Source: Bacteroidota bacterium (GTDB lineage Bacteria; Bacteroidota; Bacteroidia; Flavobacteriales; Schleiferiaceae). From it: a stretch of DNA of 64,000 bases. The notes beneath the pieces are model-generated. The model saw only the letters and a list, made by a program, of their open reading frames with translations. It had not been told where the DNA came from and searched no databases. Positions 50,702 through 61,677 of the stretch are shown piece after piece. The first letter of the stretch is position 1, and every line of letters starts with the position of its first letter. Location: assembly GCA_024742495.1 (NCBI GenBank), contig JANSYJ010000005.1:62001-126000 (forward strand). The letters run 5' to 3'. A program made the translations under genes and the position numbers.

Positions 50702-53700
50702 TTAGTCCATTTCACCATCAAGGTATGGCGCTCCACTGTTAAGTAGTATGCTGTAGAAATTGTCCAGTTCCTTTTGAATCCTTTTAATTTCAGTTTCCAT
50801 AGGTAAACGCTCCTGAAGAATGATCCTCAAGTTTTTACGCTGTTCGCCTGTAGGGGCTGAGGTAGTAGAATAAGAGTTCCAAACAGCAGAATTAAGTCGA
50901 TCTGATAAAGAGGGCTTACTTTCAAAGAAGTACTTCGCTCTTATGCCATCACCATTTATTTCAAGGTCTAAGCTGTTTAAATCGTCTTCGAGTTTTTGCA
51001 AGTCATTTAAGATAGTTAATGGGGCCCCAGGGGTATTTCGAGCTAATGCTTTCAGCTGGGTGCTTCTGGTTTTTAGCTTTGAGTGGAGTTCCCGAAGGGC
51101 AACAAAGTCTCGACGTGCATTTTCTAAGCTATCCTGAAAGGCAATAAGCTTGGCGTGATCTTTTGTCCCGAAGCTGTTATTATTCATCCAGTTTAAGCGA
51201 AATTCCTCTTTTACATTTAAGGGTCGGAGGGTTCCGTTTTCGGAAATAAAGACTTCTACTTGGTACTTTCCAGGGGCGGCTAAATTGGCCGATGATGCAG
51301 TGGTAAATGGCTCGCCTCGAGTTCCAGCATAACTGCGATTTCCGAGACTTCCATCCCAGTAATAGCGATTAATTCCTTTAGAAGGACGAGCAGTAAAACG
51401 ACGAATTTCTTTGTCGTCCTCATCTTGAATGATAAAGAGTAAATAAGTGGATTCTTCCTGCTCTTCCGCTCTTAAACGCTCAATACTTGGGTAAACAATA
51501 TCGGAGCCATTCTTTTTGGCTTTGGCCTCTACTTTCTTTCTTTTACTCTTTAATCCTTTTGGCAGATCTTTGATGTAAAGACTAAAACTTACGTCATTCT
51601 TAGCGTTGGGAGCGGCGTAGTAACTAGCGCCCATAAAGCCATTTCGGCCATAGCCAAGAGGCGAGGCTTCAAAAAATAGATTGGCATCTTTAATCGGGAA
51701 TAAGTGGGCTTCATTTTGAAGTTGCTCCGCTTTTAAATGGCGTAAAGGAGTATAATCATCTAGGACATAAAAGCCTCTACCGAAGGTGGCAAGAACAAGG
51801 TCATTTTCGCGACGTTGAATTTCGAGGTCTCTAACGGCGATGGTTGGTAAACCGGCTCCTAGTTGTCGCCAGTTCTGGCCGCCATCTACACTAGTGTGAA
51901 CACCAAATTCGGTTCCAATAAAAAATAGATTTTTATTTACATGATCTTGTCGCATGGCAAACACCGAGCCACGCTCGGGTAAATTGCTGCTTATATTAGA
52001 CCAGGTTTTACCCTTGTCGCTACTCTTGAGAACATAAGGTTTAAAATCTCCATTTTTATGATTATTGAATAGAGCGTAAACTACATTCTCATCAAATAAA
52101 TCTGCCAGCACCTGGTTTACATAGGTGTTAGCGGGTACGCCTGGGAAATCACTTTCCTTACGCCAATTGGCACCGCCATCTTCACTTATCTGAATTAAGC
52201 CATCATCGGTTCCAATGTAAAGTAATCCTTCTTTTAATGGTGATTCATCTAGAGCAACAATATTTCCATAAATGGATGTGGATTTATCGTAAGCAATGGC
52301 ATCAACCGATTGAATTTTGCCCATTACTTTAAGGCCATGTCGGTCTATCTGCTGACTTAAATCGGGAGAAATTACTTTCCAGTTATTACCGCGATCATCG
52401 CTCCGGAAAACTTTATTTGCAGCAAAGTATAGGCGCTTGTGGTTATGCGGTGAGATTAAAAGCGGTGCGTCCCAGTTCCAACGATAGGCTTCTTCATCTT
52501 TATCTGGTGATGGTTTAATGCCAACGCTTTCACCACTCACTTTATCAAATCGCACTAGCCAACCGTACTGAGCTTGAGCGTAAACGATATTAGGGTCTTT
52601 GGGATCAATTTGCGACTCAAAACCATCACCGGTATTGGTTACAAACCAATCTGAGTTTACGATGCCACGCGAGTTAATGGTTTGTGATGGCCCACCAAGG
52701 GAGAAGTTATCCTGAGTTCCGCCATAAACATTGTAGAAGGGCTCTGCATTGTCAACCGCTACACGGTAAAACTGAGTCACTGGTAAATTTGGCTTATAGT
52801 GCCAGTTTGAGGCGCCGTCCCAAGTTTCGTATAAACCTCCATCGCAACCAGCAATCATATTAGTGGGATCATTCGGATTAATCCATAGGCAGTGGTTATC
52901 TACATGCTTATTAGCTTCTGGAACGCGATTCCAAGATTTGCCACCATCTTTACTCACATGCATGTAAGTATCCATAGAATATACGGTGTTGGCATCTGTT
53001 GGATCTACTACCAGCTCTACATAGTAGTTTCCACTGGTGTTGTAATTATCTAATTTATTAAAGGAAGCTCCACGATCGTCGCTGCGGTAAAAGCCATGTC
53101 CTTCCACCATCGCATAAACTAAATTGGGGTTTAGTTTACTTAAACCAAGAGCAATTCTTCCTTTGTCAGAGGGTAGGCCTTTCTTAAGTTCTTTCCAGGT
53201 TTTTCCACCGTCCGTACTTTTGTAAATCCCACTTTCTGGTCCACCACTAACATAAGTCCAAACATGTCTGCGTCGCTGATGCGCAGCTGCATAAAGTACC
53301 TCCGAATTATTTGGGTCGAAGTGGATTTCGTTAAATCCAGTGTTTTCCGATACCTCCAAAACTTGATCCCAGGTAGCACCTCCGTCTTCTGTAAGGTAAA
53401 TCCCTCTTTCACCCCCGGCAGACCATAATGGTCCATAAGCGGCTACAAAAACGCGATTGCTATTATTGGGATCGATGGCGATCATTCCAATGTGTTCGGA
53501 TGTTTTTAGACCTACATTCTTCCACGATTTCCCGCCATCCTCGCTTTTATAAAGACCATCGCCAAATGGTACCGAACGCTGGTTGTTGTTTTCTCCAGAA
53601 CCTACCCAAACGACATTTGTATTATTTGGGTCAATGCTAACACAACCGATGGAGTAGGAGCTTTGGCCATCGAAAATTGGATTAAAGGTGGTACCATGGT

Positions 53701-53920
53701 TATTGGTTTTCCATAATCCGCCGCTGGCCACACCAACGTAATATTCGCTAAAGTTATTGGGGTTAACCGCTATATCTGCGATCCTGCCCGAAGTTAGGGC
53801 TGGGCCAATTTCCCGGAATTTTAATCCGTTAAGGCCAACTTTGTTTAATAGAGAGTCTTGTGCTTGTGCTCCTAGTCCTAAGATAAGGCCAAGGATAACT
53901 ATTTTCATTCGGTGCATCAT
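50702..53920 (-). CDS. Exported VPS10/sortilin-like BNR propeller protein
   Basis: 1072 residues from the ATG at 53918-53920. The next two Met codons (53915-53917, 53906-53908) are alternatives; all precede the signal peptide ILGLILGLGAQAQ. At least nine Asp-box repeats (SEDGGKSW, TEDGGATW, STDGGKTW, SKDGGKSW, SDDRGNNW, SEDGGANW, SSDKGKTW, SVDGGQNW and similar) make two large propellers over residues ~30-720. The last ~300 residues form a separate beta/coil region with a helical end. Such proteins are common in Bacteroidota and often called glycosyl hydrolases, but hydrolase activity is unproven. No T9SS tail is seen. Confidence 0.88.
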   Translation of the reverse strand: MMHRMKIVILGLILGLGAQAQDSLLNKVGLNGLKFREIGPALTSGRIADIAVNPNNFSEYYVGVASGGLWKTNNHGTTFNPIFDGQSSYSIGCVSIDPNNTNVVWVGSGENNNQRSVPFGDGLYKSEDGGKSWKNVGLKTSEHIGMIAIDPNNSNRVFVAAYGPLWSAGGERGIYLTEDGGATWDQVLEVSENTGFNEIHFDPNNSEVLYAAAHQRRRHVWTYVSGGPESGIYKSTDGGKTWKELKKGLPSDKGRIALGLSKLNPNLVYAMVEGHGFYRSDDRGASFNKLDNYNTSGNYYVELVVDPTDANTVYSMDTYMHVSKDGGKSWNRVPEANKHVDNHCLWINPNDPTNMIAGCDGGLYETWDGASNWHYKPNLPVTQFYRVAVDNAEPFYNVYGGTQDNFSLGGPSQTINSRGIVNSDWFVTNTGDGFESQIDPKDPNIVYAQAQYGWLVRFDKVSGESVGIKPSPDKDEEAYRWNWDAPLLISPHNHKRLYFAANKVFRSDDRGNNWKVISPDLSQQIDRHGLKVMGKIQSVDAIAYDKSTSIYGNIVALDESPLKEGLLYIGTDDGLIQISEDGGANWRKESDFPGVPANTYVNQVLADLFDENVVYALFNNHKNGDFKPYVLKSSDKGKTWSNISSNLPERGSVFAMRQDHVNKNLFFIGTEFGVHTSVDGGQNWRQLGAGLPTIAVRDLEIQRRENDLVLATFGRGFYVLDDYTPLRHLKAEQLQNEAHLFPIKDANLFFEASPLGYGRNGFMGASYYAAPNAKNDVSFSLYIKDLPKGLKSKRKKVEAKAKKNGSDIVYPSIERLRAEEQEESTYLLFIIQDEDDKEIRRFTARPSKGINRYYWDGSLGNRSYAGTRGEPFTTASSANLAAPGKYQVEVFISENGTLRPLNVKEEFRLNWMNNNSFGTKDHAKLIAFQDSLENARRDFVALRELHSKLKTRSTQLKALARNTPGAPLTILNDLQKLEDDLNSLDLEINGDGIRAKYFFESKPSLSDRLNSAVWNSYSTTSAPTGEQRKNLRIILQERLPMETEIKRIQKELDNFYSILLNSGAPYLDGEMD

Positions 53921-53961
53921 AGATGGTTTGTTTGCTTCTAAAAGAGGCCCGAATTTAAACA

Positions 53962-53993
53962 AAAAGAAGGCCGACACTAAAGAGGTCGGCCTT
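53962..53993 (-). terminator. Intrinsic terminator after the FadL-type porin gene
   Basis: AAGGCCGAC (53967-53975), a 9-nt loop and GTCGGCCTT (53985-53993) form a 9-bp stem. On the minus strand it continues into CTTTTTGTTT, a U-rich tail. It starts 4 bp after the porin stop and lies within the longest-frame 5' end of the VPS10 gene, which argues for that gene's shorter start. Confidence 0.8.
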
Positions 53994-53997
53994 ATCC

Positions 53998-55533
53998 TTA
54001 AAATTTGACGCTTACGCCAGCGATAATATTGTTAGTGACTTCTTGCATTCTCAGATCATCTAGAACCTCAAAGGCTTCATTATTAGGATCGAGGCCCCTG
54101 TACAAGGCATAGTTGCGGTCACGTTGCGAGTTAACTAGGGAAAGATCAAAGGTCCAAGGCCCTCGTCGGTAGCCAATTCCTCCGCTTATGGCTTGTAAAC
54201 CTCCAGCGGTGGTGTTAACAAATTCATCTCTATAAATAGATTCATCTTGACGGTATCCTCCTCGAATAAAGAAATTATTCAACTTCACTTCCAAGCCGGC
54301 GGATAGCGTATGGCGGCTAGTCCGGTACATGGTGTTCAAGGCAGGTTGGTATTCGCTTTGTAGGAAGGATTCATCAATGCCAATGCTGTTATTGTTGGTA
54401 TATAACCTTTGATTGCTTTGGTTTTGGAATTGATAATCTACACTAAGAATTAAGAACTTCCCAATTACACTGGCGATGCCTGCACGATATATGGCCGGCG
54501 TTCTTAAACGATAGGAATAGTTACCGGTGGTTATTGTAGATCCTTCAACGAAGGTTCCAACGCCAGGTTCTGGTTCTTGATTAAAGCTGGTGCTTACGTC
54601 AACTTCATAGTTTTGATTAACCGTGTACCAGCTTGGACTCTGATAGGAGGCGGCAATCCTGATTTCATCAATAGGCTTATAAATAAAACCGAGTTTTAAA
54701 TTGAAGCCGGAGGCATTGATGTCGTTTAATCGGCGATAAGTATACTCGCGTGCACTGTAGGTTGGATCATTGGAAAAGGGAAGATTATATTCCGTTATAA
54801 ATTCCTCTCTCCTAAAGTTTAAAGTTGGTATTCCGAAAGATAGGCCATAGTACCATTTATGACCTTTGTCTAAAGCTAAAACAATGTTAGTTTCGTTTAA
54901 AGAGCCATCTTGATTGGCGACATAGCGTAAAGTACTATTGGCAACAAGTTGGTTGTTTACTACCTCGCCGTAGGCAAAACCATCGGGTATGATGGCTCCG
55001 GTTGAATCCGAAACTAGCAGGTAGGAGTCCCAGGCAGCGAAGGCATCATCGCTAATAAAGTCCGTGTTTACATTTTCAAAGCGATCGGCCCAATATTCGC
55101 CTAAGGTATATTCATTAAAAACCCCGTCGATATTGAAATTACGATTAAAGTCGGCCAGTTTGGTAGTGGTAATGGCAAGCGAAAAGCGATCTTCACCATC
55201 CTTATTCATCATGAGATTAATGCCGAAGTTTTCAAAGAGTACATTGAAATTGGCCTGAGTTCCTTCGGTATTGTAGAATTGGCTGTAATTCCCGCGATAG
55301 TCGTTAAAGCCTAGGCTAAAGCTTAAGGCGCTGTGTCTGTTAACCGCAGCTCCTGCGGGGTTAATGGCATAAGAGGCAGGGTCATTTCCCAGGGCAGTAA
55401 AAGCGCCCCCCATTGCGCTAAACCGGGGGGAGCCGTGTAAGTTTCTATTTTGGAAGAGTCCAACATCATCCACAGTTTGTCCTTGCAATAAGGCAGCGCA
55501 TAAGATGAAGAGGGCACTGATTTGTTTTTTCAT
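53998..55533 (-). CDS. OmpP1/FadL-family outer-membrane transport protein
   Basis: 511 residues with signal peptide (MKKQISALFILCAALLQG). The N-terminus of the mature protein reads GSPRFSAMGGAFTALGNDPASYAINPAG, the hatch motif of the FadL/OmpP1 family with NPAG. The rest alternates as a 14-strand beta-barrel would, ending with a terminal aromatic-type strand NIIAGVSVKF. It likely takes up hydrophobic molecules across the outer membrane. It lies 26 bp downstream of the Ser/Arg-rich lipoprotein gene on the same strand and probably shares its transcript. Confidence 0.9.
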   Translation of the reverse strand: MKKQISALFILCAALLQGQTVDDVGLFQNRNLHGSPRFSAMGGAFTALGNDPASYAINPAGAAVNRHSALSFSLGFNDYRGNYSQFYNTEGTQANFNVLFENFGINLMMNKDGEDRFSLAITTTKLADFNRNFNIDGVFNEYTLGEYWADRFENVNTDFISDDAFAAWDSYLLVSDSTGAIIPDGFAYGEVVNNQLVANSTLRYVANQDGSLNETNIVLALDKGHKWYYGLSFGIPTLNFRREEFITEYNLPFSNDPTYSAREYTYRRLNDINASGFNLKLGFIYKPIDEIRIAASYQSPSWYTVNQNYEVDVSTSFNQEPEPGVGTFVEGSTITTGNYSYRLRTPAIYRAGIASVIGKFLILSVDYQFQNQSNQRLYTNNNSIGIDESFLQSEYQPALNTMYRTSRHTLSAGLEVKLNNFFIRGGYRQDESIYRDEFVNTTAGGLQAISGGIGYRRGPWTFDLSLVNSQRDRNYALYRGLDPNNEAFEVLDDLRMQEVTNNIIAGVSVKF

Positions 55534-55559: not shown

Positions 55560-57017
55560 TTAACGTCCGCGTCCTGAACGGCTAGAGCTTGAAGAGCGAC
55601 TTGAGCCTGAAGAACGACTGGAACCTGAAGAGCGACTTCCGCTGCTACTTCTAGCTGATGATCCTGAAGAGCGGCTGGCACCAGAGCTTCTCGAAGAGCG
55701 TGAAGATCTTGCCGAAGAACCACTGCTTCTATTAGAGCTAGAAGGGCTGTAAGATCTGCTATTGCTAGAGCTGCCAGAACGTGCATTGCTGCGACTTGAT
55801 CCGCTTCGGCTGGAAGGGCTGTAGGTTCTATTACTGCTATTAGAACGGGCGTTTCCGTTTGAACCACTGCTAGAGCTATTGCCGCGTTGTTGGAAAGTTT
55901 GGCTGCGTTCCGTACGGCTGCGGTAATTGCTGTTATTCCGACTGCTGCTTGAATTTTGGTTCGCCGCTCTATTCGAAGTATTTGTTCTTGAAGTCGCACT
56001 GCGATTGCTATTTGATCTATTGGTACTTGCACGGTTAGTGGAAGTTCTTCCATTAGTATTAGCTGAAGAAGTTCTTCCGCTGCTGCGATTTGTGTTTACC
56101 GCACTTCTGCTAGAGCTTCTGCCCGAGCTTGCACTATATCGGTTACTGCGTTCTACATTACTTGCGTATCTGCTGGTGCGAACCGTGTTTGCGGTGCGAC
56201 CGCTGCTAACACGACCAGTGCTACTGCTTGCTCTGCGATTTAGATTTGCGCTATTGAAACGGCTGCTTCTAACATTGCTGCGATTTACGCGACCAGCAGT
56301 GGTTTTTCCTCTACCACTTCTTCCATTAGAGTAGGCTGTTCTTCGGCTAACTAAGCCTCGAGAATTGAGGTTGTATGAACCAGCTCTTCCAAAGCGCCCG
56401 CGAGGGCCACCGTAGATGCGGTTACGTCCGTAAAATCCGTCGTTTATTCCGGCGTGGTATCCTTGGTTGAATCCATTCCAGTAGGCATTTCCTCTGTTCC
56501 AGCCCCAGCCAGGTCCCCAGCCAGCGTTCCATCCCCATCCGGAGTTCCAACCCCATCCAGCTCTTCCCCAGCCTGCATTCCATCCAAAGCCAGCGTTCCA
56601 TCCCCAGCCTGGTCCCCAAGCACCGCAGTACCAAGGATCGAAGAAGGGGTCGTAATAAAAGTTATTGAAAGCCCAGTTGTTGTAGCCCCAGTTGTCCCAG
56701 TATCCCACTCTCATTCGTGGATTGCTAAACATTGGGTCGTAGTAATTATTAACTACAGTGGTTCCGCCACCTCCAGCGAGTGCTTGGTTACTAGCAGAAT
56801 TATCGTTTGGGTCGAAATAGTTTAGATCTTGACTTTGATCGCTATTTGGATCAACTTCGTTTAGGTTGAAGTCATCGCCATTTGCCGCGGTTTGCTGTTG
56901 AGCAACTGGCTCAGAATAGAGTCCGTCCTCGTAATAGTTGTTTACAGTAGTTGATTTAGATCCGCAAGCAGCGAGGAGGAAGAGGCTTGCGATTAAACTG
57001 ACAATTGGCTTTTTCAT
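55560..57017 (-). CDS. Lipoprotein with Trp/Gly-rich repeats and long Ser/Arg-rich tail, unknown function
   Basis: 485 residues. The lipoprotein signal ends LFLLAACG with the lipidated Cys18. Residues ~19-100 are acidic/polar with two VNNYY segments (near 25-29 and 89-93). Residues ~103-180 hold repeats of the form GWGWNAGW/GWGWNSGW, extremely rich in Trp, Gly and Asn. Residues ~198-485 are almost entirely Ser, Arg, Asn, Gly and Thr (RSSGSSRSS-type repeats), very basic and probably disordered. I know no family with a proven role. The cationic tail could bind polyanions such as LPS, DNA or polysaccharide. It lies in a tandem with the FadL-type porin gene. Low complexity makes shadow frames appear on both strands. 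Confidence 0.8.
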   Translation of the reverse strand: MKKPIVSLIASLFLLAACGSKSTTVNNYYEDGLYSEPVAQQQTAANGDDFNLNEVDPNSDQSQDLNYFDPNDNSASNQALAGGGGTTVVNNYYDPMFSNPRMRVGYWDNWGYNNWAFNNFYYDPFFDPWYCGAWGPGWGWNAGFGWNAGWGRAGWGWNSGWGWNAGWGPGWGWNRGNAYWNGFNQGYHAGINDGFYGRNRIYGGPRGRFGRAGSYNLNSRGLVSRRTAYSNGRSGRGKTTAGRVNRSNVRSSRFNSANLNRRASSSTGRVSSGRTANTVRTSRYASNVERSNRYSASSGRSSSRSAVNTNRSSGRTSSANTNGRTSTNRASTNRSNSNRSATSRTNTSNRAANQNSSSSRNNSNYRSRTERSQTFQQRGNSSSSGSNGNARSNSSNRTYSPSSRSGSSRSNARSGSSSNSRSYSPSSSNRSSGSSARSSRSSRSSGASRSSGSSARSSSGSRSSGSSRSSGSSRSSSSSRSGRGR

Positions 57018-57047
57018 GATTTCAATTTTAGGGATTCGTTAAATACT

Positions 57048-57055
57048 TAGCTTTG
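57048..57055 (+). promoter_or_regulatory. -7 promoter box for proS
   Basis: TAGCTTTG (TAnnTTTG), with an AT-rich TTTT (57026-57029) 18 bp before it as a weak -33. The proS ATG is 42 bp downstream. Confidence 0.55.
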
Positions 57056-57096
57056 CTGAATAGAATAAAACAAACTCCATACCAAGTTACAAATTA

Positions 57097-58572
57097 ATGG
57101 CTCAGAAGTTGACAAAACGATCCGATGACTATTCTAAATGGTATAATGAACTAGTTGTTCGCGCAGACCTCGCAGAAAATAGTGCAGTACGTGGATCAAT
57201 GGTAATCAAACCCTATGGTTATGCCATCTGGGAAAAAATGCAGGCAGAACTGGATCGAATGTTTAAGGAAACGGGTCATGAGAATGCTTATTTCCCTCTT
57301 TTTATTCCCAAGTCTTTTTTCTCTAAAGAAGCAAGCCACGTGGATGGTTTTGCCAAGGAATGCGCGGTGGTAACTCACTACCGTTTAAAGAATGATCCAG
57401 ATGGCAATGGGGTTGTAGTGGATGAGAATGCCCGTTTGGAAGAAGAGCTAATAGTGCGACCAACTTCTGAAACCATAATTTGGGACACCTTTAAAAATTG
57501 GGTGCAGAGCTACAGGGATTTACCGCTAAAGATAAATCAGTGGGCGAATGTTGTTCGCTGGGAAATGCGCACCCGATTGTTTTTACGTACCGCGGAGTTT
57601 TTATGGCAAGAAGGTCATACAGCACATGCAACACGTGATGAGGCGGTAGAAGAAGCAGAGACCATGCTGAATATTTACGCTGACTTTGCTGAGAACTTCA
57701 TGGCTATTCCAGTGATTAAGGGAATTAAAACTGAAAGCGAACGCTTTGCTGGCGCAGAAGAGACCTACTGTATTGAGGCGATGATGCAAGATGGTAAAGC
57801 TTTACAAGCTGGTACAAGCCATTTCTTAGGTCAAAATTTCGCTAAAGCATTTGAGGTGAAGTATGCCTCAAAGGAAGGCAAGGAAGAATATGTTTGGGCT
57901 ACCTCATGGGGGGTTTCTACCCGATTGATGGGGGCCTTGGTGATGACTCATTCCGATGATCAAGGATTGGTGCTGCCTCCCAACTTAGCTCCCTATCAAG
58001 TAGTGATTGTTCCTATATATAAGGGGCAGGATCAACTGGATCAAATCTCCGAGAAGGCTTTGGAAATTCAAAAGCGTTTAAGAGCCAAGGGAATTAGTGT
58101 GAAGTTTGATAATCGCGATACGCATAAACCTGGTTGGAAGTTCGCCGAGTATGAACTAAAAGGAGTACCATTGAGAATTGCCATGGGACCGCGCGATTTG
58201 GCTAATAACACCGTGGAGCTTGCTCGCAGAGATACCCTTTCCAAAGAATCAATTAGTCTGGATGAGAATCTGGAAAGCCTCATTGAAAAAACCTTGGCTG
58301 AAATTCAAACGAACTTGTATGCTAAAGCCCTTAAATTCCGAGAGGAGCACAGCCATGTTTCCGATTCATGGGAAGACTTTAAGGTGCAAATCGAAGCAGG
58401 AGGATTTGTTTGGGCACATTGGGATGGAACTTCAGAAACTGAAGACAAGATTAAAAAGGAAACCAAAGCAACTATTCGCTGCATAGCCTTAGATCAAAAA
58501 GAAGAAGATGGAAGCTGCATTTACAGCGGTGCTCCGAGTAAAGGCAGGGTGATTTTCGCAAAAGCCTATTAA
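57097..58572 (+). CDS. proS: Proline-tRNA ligase, archaeal/eukaryal-type short form
   Basis: 491 residues, the compact class II ProRS type found in archaea, eukaryotes and many Bacteroidota (no bacterial editing insertion). Motif 2 region [20 protein letters not shown] is diagnostic of this type. Other marks are [17 protein letters not shown] and [22 protein letters not shown] (motif 3), then the anticodon-binding domain ([26 protein letters not shown]) and the C-terminal zinc-domain-like segment with CIYSGAPS. Start ATG at 57097. Confidence 0.97.
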
Positions 58573-59109: not shown

Positions 59110-59772
59110 ATGTCTATATCAGAAAACCTAAAATCACTAAAAGCAGAGCTGCCTAAAGATGTATGTCTTGTGGCCGTATCTAAAACCAAACCTGTAGAAG
59201 CTTTGGAAGAAGCTTATGCTCAAGGACAGCGAATCTTTGGGGAGAACAGGATTCAGGAGATGCAGGAAAAGGCTAAGGTATTACCAAAAGACATCCAATG
59301 GCACATGATAGGGCATGTGCAAGACAATAAAATAAAGTACATGGCGGACTTCGTAAGTTTGGTCCATGGGATGGATAAGCCGAAGCGTTTAAAAGCTTTG
59401 AATAAGGAAGCCGCCAAAGTAAATCGTGTTATCGATTGCTTAGTGCAGGTGCACATTGCGGAGGAAGAAAGCAAATTTGGATTCGATTATCAGGAAGCAG
59501 AAGCCCTATTTAAAAGTGAAATTGAATCACTTTACCCCAATATTCGAATTTGTGGCTTAATGGGTATGGCCACCTTTACAGATGATAAAGAGCAAGTTGA
59601 ACGCGAGTTCGCAGGTTTAAAGTCATTTTATGACAAAATTAAAGCCCAGCTTTATAACGCAGATCACTTTAATATCCTCAGCATGGGGATGAGCGGTGAT
59701 TTTAAACTTGCTATAAAGCAGGGCTCTAATATGGTTCGCATTGGCTCCAGTATTTTTGGAGCTCGAAATTAA
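59110..59772 (+). CDS. yggS: PLP homeostasis protein YggS
   Basis: 220 residues of the YggS/PROSC family: LVAVSKTKPVEAL with PLP-Lys25, GENRIQEMQEKA, WHMIGHVQDNKIKYM, LVQVHIAEEESKFGF, RICGLMGMATFT, and LSMGMSGDFKLAIKQGSNMVRIGSSIFG. It binds pyridoxal 5'-phosphate and buffers its level without a known catalytic reaction. ATG at 59110, 14 bp after the rpsT terminator; the stop shares TTAA with the convergent gene. Confidence 0.95.
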   Translation: MSISENLKSLKAELPKDVCLVAVSKTKPVEALEEAYAQGQRIFGENRIQEMQEKAKVLPKDIQWHMIGHVQDNKIKYMADFVSLVHGMDKPKRLKALNKEAAKVNRVIDCLVQVHIAEEESKFGFDYQEAEALFKSEIESLYPNIRICGLMGMATFTDDKEQVEREFAGLKSFYDKIKAQLYNADHFNILSMGMSGDFKLAIKQGSNMVRIGSSIFGARN

Positions 59773-60443
59773 TTGGACCTCGTTAAGCCAAGTACTAGGC
59801 CTAAAACTGGCCTTAGCCCGCTATCATATTCATAGCCTGGTCCATTAAATTCTAGACTGTAACTATCTCCTTTATATTCCGGTGCCAGTAGGTCGGACCT
59901 GTTTTGAATAAACTCATAGGTCACACCAAAATAGACTTCGAAAAAGAAAGCGCCATAATTATCTTGCCAGCCTATGAGTGCCTCATAGCCTAGGCTGATT
60001 GGTCTGTCGCTGAGGCTCACATCTCGATACTCCATAAAAGTATTGCCAAAGCGTTCATAGGACTCCCAAATGGTAGCGTCGAAAGCAAGTTCTGCGGCGC
60101 CAAAACGCAGTCCATGCCGAAAGGTTAAAATGTCCTTTTCGCTGAGGGGGAAAAATATTTTATGATAAAGCCCTCCTTTAACTGCCCAATTAGTGCGCTG
60201 ATAAAGATCTCCTTCGTAAAAGGATTGGTAAAATGGATTGGAAAGCCTTAAACCGATGTGATGGCGATCCTTAAGCTGAAAGCTAGCATCAATGGTTAAG
60301 GCGGGAACTATTACATCGGTAGCCACCAGGCCTACTTGCCATTTAGGAAGTCGTTTCGTGTAATCAAAAGGACTGTCCTGTTCTTGCGCCAAGAGTAATT
60401 GTCCGCCAAGAAATAGGAGGAGGGTAAATGTGAAAACTCTCAT
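59769..60443 (-). CDS. Exported beta-barrel-like protein, unknown
   Basis: 224 residues with signal peptide (MRVFTFTLLLFLGGQLLLAQ). Alternating strands (VGLVATDVIVPALTID, HHIGLRLSNPFYQSFYEG, TFRHGLRFGAAELAFD, GAFFFEVYFGVTYEF, RPVLGLVLGLTRS) suggest an outer-membrane barrel. No specific family is seen. It overlaps the previous gene by one base (TAATG), and its stop overlaps yggS by 4 bp. It is the last gene of the DUF5686-LVIVD operon. Confidence 0.7.
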   Translation of the reverse strand: MRVFTFTLLLFLGGQLLLAQEQDSPFDYTKRLPKWQVGLVATDVIVPALTIDASFQLKDRHHIGLRLSNPFYQSFYEGDLYQRTNWAVKGGLYHKIFFPLSEKDILTFRHGLRFGAAELAFDATIWESYERFGNTFMEYRDVSLSDRPISLGYEALIGWQDNYGAFFFEVYFGVTYEFIQNRSDLLAPEYKGDSYSLEFNGPGYEYDSGLRPVLGLVLGLTRSN

Positions 60444-61180
60444 TATAATTCACTTAATAAATTCAACTTTCCATTTACAAAGCGATACTGGCTTAAACCT
60501 TCACTCGAAACGGCGATTATTAAATCCCCATAGGGTATTAAATCAAAGGCATCAAAGTCTTCATCTACATCTAATAGTTCTAAGGAAAGTGGATCAGAGA
60601 CATCAAATACCTTCAAGCCTCGATCACAAACCAACAAAGTATCTGCATAAAGTCCTAAGCCTCTCGGGTTAACCATTGGGAAGGAACTGATCAATTTTGG
60701 ATTGCGAAGATCTCGGATGTCCAGGATGTCTAACTGATTTACACTGCGCCAACAGAAATTATTATTTTGCTCGCTGCGCAAGGTTACATAGGCGTAGTTC
60801 TCATTGGCCACTACCGGATCGCAGGCAACCACATGTTGATAGGAGCTCAGTCGCTCGATATTTGGGGCATTGCTCACATCATAAATAAACATACCAGAGG
60901 TACTGCCTATGAAAATGGTATTGGTGTCTCTTGCGAAGATGGTTTCTACGGTAGTAAAAAGAGAATGCTTACTAAGGTAGATGGCATTGGCCGGGTTGGC
61001 AATGTTAAAAACATTAAGATCATTCCCGTTTACGGCATATAAGTGATCATTGGCAATTGTAAATCGGGCCATACTTCCACCCTGGCCACTGGCTGGGGCA
61101 GAGGCTATATCGGAAGAGCTATCTTGTCCGCATGAAGCGAGCAGAACTATTACACTTAGGTAGCTGAGTAATTTTTTCAT
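60443..61180 (-). CDS. LVIVD-repeat propeller lipoprotein
   Basis: 245 residues from the ATG at 61178-61180 (MKKLLSYLSVIVLLASCG), with a lipobox ending at Cys17. The rest is a beta-propeller of LVIVD-type repeats: LNVFNIANPANAIYL, MFIYDVSNAPNIERL, LDILDIRDLRNPKLI, LKVFDVSDPLSLELL. Such proteins are surface/outer-membrane lipoproteins of unknown role. The ATG overlaps the stop of the upstream gene (ATGA). Confidence 0.85.
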   Translation of the reverse strand: MKKLLSYLSVIVLLASCGQDSSSDIASAPASGQGGSMARFTIANDHLYAVNGNDLNVFNIANPANAIYLSKHSLFTTVETIFARDTNTIFIGSTSGMFIYDVSNAPNIERLSSYQHVVACDPVVANENYAYVTLRSEQNNNFCWRSVNQLDILDIRDLRNPKLISSFPMVNPRGLGLYADTLLVCDRGLKVFDVSDPLSLELLDVDEDFDAFDLIPYGDLIIAVSSEGLSQYRFVNGKLNLLSEL

Positions 61181-61677
61181 ATTTCTTTCCATTTTACAAT
61201 GATGCTGTTCTCAGGTCTGTTGTTTAAATCACTGCTGTAATAACCGTCAGGAGCAGCTAATTCGGGGAATACATCCCGATTGCGATCTACCACTTGAACC
61301 TTTTGGCCATCGTAGGAAATCACTATTAAGTCCACAGCATTATCAGCGTAGATATAACCATCCTTCATGGCGATGTCAATATTTCCAGGAATGGTAATGA
61401 AACCAATGTTTACGGGGTTTGAGGGGTCGGCATTGTTAATAATGTGAATGCCTTCATAGACCTCATTGATGAAGAGCAGATCTCCAAACCGATAGATTTT
61501 CCCAAAATTGTTGATGCTTTGGGGGTCAATCAACTTTACAGAATTTTCGAGGGCGCTCCGCTCCATAATGATGGGTTTATAAGCGGATTGATTGTAGTAA
61601 TAGCTATCTCTTTCATCGGGCCAACAGGAGGCCATCACAAATAGGGATAATAGGACCGGAATAATACGGTAATTCAT
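61177..61677 (-). CDS. Small LVIVD-like lipoprotein
   Basis: 166 residues with a lipobox (LSLFVMASCW, Cys at 18). The mature protein carries one or two LVIVD-like units (GIHIINNADPSNPVNIGFI, VDLIVISYDGQKVQVV) and ends with DLNNRPENSIIVKW. It looks like a partial propeller companion of the next gene, to which it is coupled by ATGA. It starts 57 bp after the DUF5686 gene. Confidence 0.75.
   Translation of the reverse strand: MNYRIIPVLLSLFVMASCWPDERDSYYYNQSAYKPIIMERSALENSVKLIDPQSINNFGKIYRFGDLLFINEVYEGIHIINNADPSNPVNIGFITIPGNIDIAMKDGYIYADNAVDLIVISYDGQKVQVVDRNRDVFPELAAPDGYYSSDLNNRPENSIIVKWKEI

Follow-up and report, generated by a model that had tools for sequence, protein, structure and literature searches.

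A predicted disordered, polycationic lipoprotein paired with a FadL-family barrel in Bacteroidota

The lipoprotein gene and its neighbours

The window, that is, the whole stretch of 64,000 nucleotides analysed here, carries a lipoprotein gene placed between the gene of a FadL-family outer-membrane barrel and a divergent proS, with the following features:

55560..57017, minus strand: lipoprotein ORF (P0001), 485 aa, ATG start; signal peptide, Cys18, motif, linker, middle and tail
56964..57017, minus strand: signal peptide and lipobox (MKKPIVSLIASLFLLAAC), residues 1-17; lipobox FLLAAC, Cys18
56907..56942, minus strand: post-anchor motif NNYYEDGLYSEP, residues 26-37, a D-D-G-I-Y-type element common to relatives within the class
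56484..56618, minus strand: W/G/N repeats, about residues 134-178
55563..56363, minus strand: basic Ser/Arg tail, residues 219-485, charge +49
53998..55533, minus strand: FadL-family outer-membrane barrel (P0002), the partner gene, 511 aa; 26-bp gap to the lipoprotein ORF
57018..57096: intergenic region of 79 bp from which the lipoprotein gene and proS diverge, one TAnnTTTG match
57097..58572, plus strand: proS, divergent neighbour; frequent, though the pair occurs without proS too

Behind the signal peptide with its lipobox, P0001 has Cys18, from which the sequence reads CGSKSTT, and then CGSKSTTVNNYYEDGLYSEP, the NYFDPND-containing acidic linker, the W/G/N-rich segment and the basic tail. 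The tail, i.e., the 267 aa after residue 218, consists to 84% of S, R, T, N, P and G (S 0.37, R 0.19) with 0.7% acidic residues, and has a net charge of +49, compared with -6 for the part from the Cys to residue 218. The layout given in a preliminary description of this DNA (lipobox, W/G/N part, Ser/Arg tail and a 26-bp gap to a porin gene) agrees with the ORF coordinates and composition, as does its statement that the protein is very positively charged. The structure model of P0001 has a mean pLDDT of 44.8, with 404 of the 485 residues below 50; accordingly, the protein is predicted to be almost wholly disordered, and the same model does not show the folded, elongated two-domain surface lipoprotein of the BamH type. 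A search of P0001 against its own 3.6-Mb genome at E<=1 returned itself as the single match.

P0001 is covered by neither a Pfam nor an NCBIfam family, and the same holds for ten further diverse members, while the 33 other A2 members have compositional Pfam matches only; this is in line with the earlier remark that nothing like the protein is functionally described. The NCBIfam matches of P0001 (E 0.004-0.2) involve the signal-peptide end only and lie far under the cut-offs. The lipoprotein profile also matched mL77 and CWF21, and these matches, like those to KRTAP/DUF5585, were taken as compositional. Genes for such lipoproteins may be annotated under the name 'vitellogenin II precursor'.

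As for the surroundings, the 79 bp that separate proS from the lipoprotein gene hold one TAnnTTTG sequence on the plus strand (57048) and none on the minus strand of 57018..57096. On its downstream side, the barrel gene is followed after 20 bp by a 1091-aa Sortilin-Vps10/BNR-repeat ORF (50702-53977, minus strand). Beyond proS, 59769-61192 (minus strand) holds a 224-aa ORF with a signal-like start, without a Pfam match at E<=1, and a 249-aa lipoprotein-like ORF, the two overlapping by one base.

The barrel and the recurrence of the pair

The FadL-type porin of the preliminary description holds as regards fold. The barrel model (pLDDT 90.7) matched FadL (3dwo, E 1.6e-16) and BamG (9hiv_F, E 1.7e-16) in Foldseek at 10-13% identity, and VIA-align gave Z values of 30-33 for FadL, CymD, TbuX and TodX (about 33 for CymD and FadL) and about 31 for BamG, the identity to CymD, FadL and BamG being 13-17%, and a Z of 25 for PorV. 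The barrel thus resembles the FadL/TodX/TbuX/CymD channels in fold and in its NPA motif, but differs from them in scoring below the Toluene_X cut-off (Pfam PF03349, 17.3 bits vs. a gathering threshold of 29.7), in its longer N-terminus and in having a dedicated lipoprotein partner.

The NPA-bearing N-terminus is the best-conserved portion of the barrel, residues 19-60 holding 13 of the 28 columns that are invariant or close to it. Alignments to the model start at residue 21 for the three BamG chains and at residues 27-30 for the FadL-type ranks 1-16; the exceptions, TodX 3brz (residue 25) and the PorV chains (residue 24), are intermediate, so no absolute line divides FadL-type from BamG-type N-termini. 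The stretch that leads from the presumed cleavage site up to NPA measures 39 residues in the barrel and 43 in this genome's BamG, compared with 32 in FadL of E. coli (N33 in the mature numbering), a value that agrees with mutant names. On the model, the N-terminus of the barrel is lengthened relative to FadL and BamG-like, and this makes it less certain that the barrel is a plain hydrocarbon channel. According to the portions consulted of the published reports, the BamG extension threads through the lateral opening to BamA and contacts the N-terminus of BamH (PMC12611786, PMC12578637), and both BamG and PorV are FadL-family barrels of assembly or secretion machines, not fatty-acid channels (PMC12578637).

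The possibility that the barrel is itself BamG, suspected from part of PMC12611786, was rejected since BamG is another gene. The BamG chains have no sequence match at E<=1 to P0002, to the barrel profile A1 or to two Flavobacteriaceae homologues, and all three are matched at 1e-40 to 3e-21 by the locus L137, where the ORF at 951-2252 (G000:C19) is this genome's BamG (best match 9n2d_B, the BamG of F. johnsoniae, at E 1.2e-40). Another same-strand ORF follows it there.

Because the lipoprotein is of low complexity, the barrel served as the search anchor, with a profile of 32 barrels (A3) and a threshold of E<=1e-15. The barrel is present in 154 of the 196 genomes of the order and in 167 of the 247 of the phylum; 42 genomes of the order have no match, and among 20 of these that were listed, 18 are reduced genomes of 0.3-0.6 Mb. 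Homologues also occur in Schleiferia thermophila, Thermaurantimonas aggregans and Phaeocystidibacter luteus. The N-terminal 221 aa of P0001, used as a direct query, found matches in 20 of 59 genomes including its own (E<=1e-3), and in all 20 the match adjoins a barrel gene (coordinates compared by eye).

To the locus described here we added 123 barrel loci, comprising the 39 from all other barrel-positive genomes of the family, 80 hand-picked among the barrel positives of the order and phylum for genus and family spread, and four from 36 named-collection barrel loci (many of the remaining 32 being the same genomes); the sample is non-random, and every locus was selected for carrying the barrel. 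The upstream gene was defined as the longest same-strand ORF ending between 150 bases inside and 700 before the barrel ORF, and a tail was scored when the second half had a charge of at least +8 and at least 20% S+R. By these definitions, the upstream gene carries such a tail in 112 of the 123 loci, whereas among the 400 other ORFs in these loci with a length of 200 aa or more, 3 have one (L257, L262 and L265). A weaker tail was found in seven loci (L214, L226, L236, L238, L244, L262 and L265), in three (L058, L067 and L074) the partner is interrupted by a run of Ns, by a stop in its frame or by an over-called start of the barrel, and one (L235) has no upstream partner. The rule may choose the wrong ORF, as in L268, where the pick is without an aromatic first half, and L265, where the tail charge of the pick is +1; in L262 and L265 a better candidate lies nearby. 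These two loci hold extra ORFs with basic, S/R-rich ends (L262:2593-3435 and L265:2406-3494), which may be the true partners or tandem copies. In L067, from a one-contig genome, the lipoprotein gene has one in-frame stop and the barrel is open, the result of either recent loss or sequencing error.

proS was found in 106 of the 123 loci, divergent in all 106, with a median gap of 101 bp. Among the 17 loci without a match, two end at a contig edge (L086 and L271) and the other 15 have room for proS to be seen; in these 15, 12 partners have the full tail, two a weaker one (L262 and L265) and one locus has none (L235). Since the partner is kept in most proS-less loci, the lipoprotein is tied to the barrel and not merely to proS. 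Hence, the linkage to a FadL-type barrel and proS anticipated in the preliminary description extends to other genomes, where a loss of linkage would have counted against it, and relatives with the same three-part layout stand beside the barrel there. It is important to note that gene adjacency alone proves neither contact nor joint function; nonetheless, the recurrence of the pair in nearly all sampled barrel loci points to an undescribed outer-membrane unit instead of a curiosity of one genome. In 24 of the 39 family loci (L053-L091), the barrel is followed within 600 bp, on its own strand, by a Sortilin-Vps10/BNR homologue, which may be a third operon member in this family.

Shared features of the relatives and the orientation of the tail

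Motifs and charges were counted in 111 relatives with an assigned signal, 103 of them scored as lipidated and eight as non-lipidated, with P0001 itself excluded. Also excluded were the broken, gapped, mis-called or missing partners (L058, L067, L074 and L235) and those to which the rule gave no signal (L070, L205, L220, L223, L248, L256, L268 and L271), several of which visibly carry a lipobox and the motif. Two of the 103 are doubtful, the Cys of L240 being due to a false start call and L237 resembling a signal-peptidase-I protein.

The post-anchor motif (D-D-G-I-Y, D-G-V-Y, D-D-V-Y and the like; a loose pattern of D/E, optional residues, I/V/L/M/W and Y) occurs within 45 residues in 87 of the 111 relatives vs. 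a fraction of 0.13 of shuffles. It is found in 35/35 relatives of the family, 31/37 of the rest of the order sample, 16/18 of the class and 4/4 further records, compared with 1/17 outside the class, where CYTQL-like starts predominate; within the order, one family shows SDPNYL-like starts in six loci. Judged from these sequences, the D-D-G-I-Y-like motif is a feature of the class, and outside the class, as well as in the family with SDPNYL starts, the relatedness of the upstream gene is carried by place and composition alone. All eight relatives of the signal-peptidase-I type, which lack a lipobox, retain the motif, some of them at the extreme N-terminus (e.g., QFDDLYFDP). Y-[DNS]-P-[FWY] occurs in 92/111 (vs. 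0.08 of shuffles), and two other elements are not treated as defining: an NNYY-type motif (30/111 vs. 0.013 of shuffles) and a Y-S-S-R-I-R-R-F-like (SRIRRF-like) element, seen in 17 of the 111 (L221, L222, L225-L228, L230-L233, L237, L241, L243, L245, L247, L250 and L251) but absent from all 35 loci scored in the own family.

Charge and aromatic content are distributed along the protein in much the same way throughout. The second half is positive in all 111 relatives (+2 to +50, median +24) and the first half negative in 91, in 110 the aromatic residues fall mostly in the first half, and 106 have R or K among their last four residues. On this comparison, the tail is conserved in kind, that is, in charge, and not in sequence.

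The tail is also under purifying selection as protein. Its dN/dS is 0.08 (dN 0.02, dS 0.25) in the unsaturated same-genus pair L054/L055, and 0.15 for both P0001/L053 and P0001/L054, where dS is saturated (2.3 and 3.1); for P0001/L056 no ratio was computable. In the six genomes compared, stop codons in the tail region number 3-5 when it is read in frame +1 and 29-47 in frame +2. Its Ser codons are spread over AGC (40), AGT (17), TCT (20), TCA (15), TCG (4) and TCC (3), the use of both Ser codon sets indicating that the tail is not a DNA microsatellite. Low dN/dS, stops in the other frames and Ser codon diversity, taken together, show that the composition is kept via selection on the protein; the codon-level signal of purifying selection thus argues that the tail is made. 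A frame error, or functionless drift of low-complexity DNA, might be suspected from the low complexity itself and from the two short tandem arrays (period 18) that Tandem Repeats Finder reported, but such an artefact is contradicted by the dN/dS values, the codon diversity, the stop pattern and the recurrence across the phylum, and we regard its probability as negligible.

With respect to the side of the membrane, the surface-export signal of Bacteroidota lipoproteins requires an acidic pair just after the lipidated Cys, as stated in the portions consulted of PMC5080379 and PMC12578637. Two acidic residues within six positions after the Cys were found in none of the 103 lipidated relatives, nor in P0001, and thus the tail is probably in the periplasm, as far as the sequences tell. 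A missing export signal predicts, and does not prove, the periplasmic side, and another export route is possible. The surface anchoring proposed in the preliminary description is not supported by this count, to which the eight relatives scored as non-lipidated can be added.

Possible roles of the pair

One of the closest described arrangements is BamG-BamH, likewise a FadL-family barrel with a lipoprotein partner, in which the conserved N-terminus of BamH binds the barrel, and the N-terminus of our barrel aligns with that of BamG. Our partner differs in being predicted disordered and without the acidic export signal, whereas BamH is described, in the parts of the reports consulted, as a folded canopy with that signal. 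BamG2/BamH2 form a putative operon in B. thetaiotaomicron, and a lipoprotein such as ours was not found among the BAM subunits of F. johnsoniae and B. thetaiotaomicron in the consulted portions of the same reports (PMC12611786, PMC12578637).

A further comparison is with LptM and its barrel LptD, a different barrel from ours. The Pfam LptM model (PF13627) matched P0001 at E 0.024 (14.9 bits vs. 27.3), over residues 6-21 only, i.e., the signal and CGSK. LptM is short, and we know of no basic tail in it. Its first post-Cys residues sit in the gate of the LptD barrel while the remainder is dynamic, and the truncations named end at residue 67 (PMC12644819, consulted in part).

Overall, we tentatively favor, with rather less than even confidence, the hypothesis that the lipoprotein is a periplasmic disordered partner whose N-terminus docks on the FadL-family barrel and whose basic tail holds envelope polyanions. 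Within this hypothesis, the pairing and the orientation are held more strongly than the ligand of the tail; the orientation, the docking, the ligand and the role of the unit are all what we infer. More specifically, both genes would give rise to one outer-membrane unit of Bacteroidota, with the lipoprotein anchored in the inner leaflet of the outer membrane and its conserved post-anchor segment (D-D-G-I-Y-like in the class) docking on the barrel, by analogy with LptM on LptD and BamH on BamG. The aromatic, acidic middle would hang under the mouth of the barrel, and the Arg-rich tail, of a length to span the periplasm, may grip polyanions such as peptidoglycan, LPS in transit or inner-membrane lipid. 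Such a unit could position, gate or stabilise the barrel.

Alternatively, the polycationic tail might tie the outer membrane to peptidoglycan or the inner membrane, with the barrel serving mainly as a footing. The tail is indeed long and basic, it is conserved in charge and not in sequence, with a basic end in 106 of 111 relatives, and the export signal is absent; a tether does not obviously require a dedicated FadL-family partner, however, and we consider this reading unlikely, albeit one that merits some weight. Somewhat less probable, in our view, is the capture at the cell surface suggested in the preliminary description, in which an external tail would take LPS, DNA, polysaccharide or hydrophobic particles and feed the FadL channel. 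Basic tails bind polyanions, and the FadL fold and the tight gene linkage are in line with such capture, but the export signal is missing from all 103 lipidated relatives, eight more are scored non-lipidated, and the N-terminus of the barrel is BamG-like. It is also conceivable, although we think it very unlikely, that the lipoprotein is a biogenesis factor only, aiding BAM in folding or stabilising its own barrel and having no later role. This possibility draws on the conserved N-terminal motif and on LptM, which joins LptD during folding at BAM (PMC12644819, consulted in part), yet it leaves a conserved basic tail of about 200 residues unexplained.

The boldest alternative, and quite an improbable one, is that the aromatic first half and the Arg tail attract each other between molecules and yield a gel beneath the outer membrane, which would gate or cluster the barrel. 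Aromatics and arginines are segregated in nearly all relatives, and the protein is predicted to be disordered, as such a condensate would have it. To our knowledge, CsgF has no arginine tail. It nevertheless provides a precedent in curli secretion, phase-separating via aromatic residues and modulating secretion through an outer-membrane machine (PMC10133297, consulted in part). Its place is the cell surface, in contrast to the layer considered here. One correlation run spoke against the simplest form of this alternative: across the 111 relatives, and with kinship ignored, the aromatic fraction against that of R+K gave rho -0.24 (p 0.012) and the corresponding counts rho 0.13 (p 0.17). Sticker stoichiometry was thus rejected, the positive correlation between aromatics and R+K being absent.

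Returning to the docked periplasmic partner that we favor, the combination of a lipoprotein with a FadL-family barrel is already known. What was not found described in the literature searched is a dedicated, disordered (as predicted) and polycationic partner that recurs over much of the phylum; likewise, no functional account of the pair was found in the open-access literature searched (including the consulted part of PMC1887533). The phylum-wide recurrence, the frequent translation-gene neighbour and a low-complexity partner without a named family make a basic role in the Bacteroidota envelope likely. A more far-reaching picture, in which the tethered aromatic/Arg disordered protein of a phylum-wide unit with a FadL-family barrel would form a condensate-like periplasmic layer, through which the barrel is controlled or linked to the cell wall, is a long shot. 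If the pairing proposed here is true, the barrel would be the third FadL-family barrel, besides BamG and PorV, to extend the non-channel pattern, here with a dedicated disordered partner, and what conserved disorder does in the outer membrane could then be tested directly.
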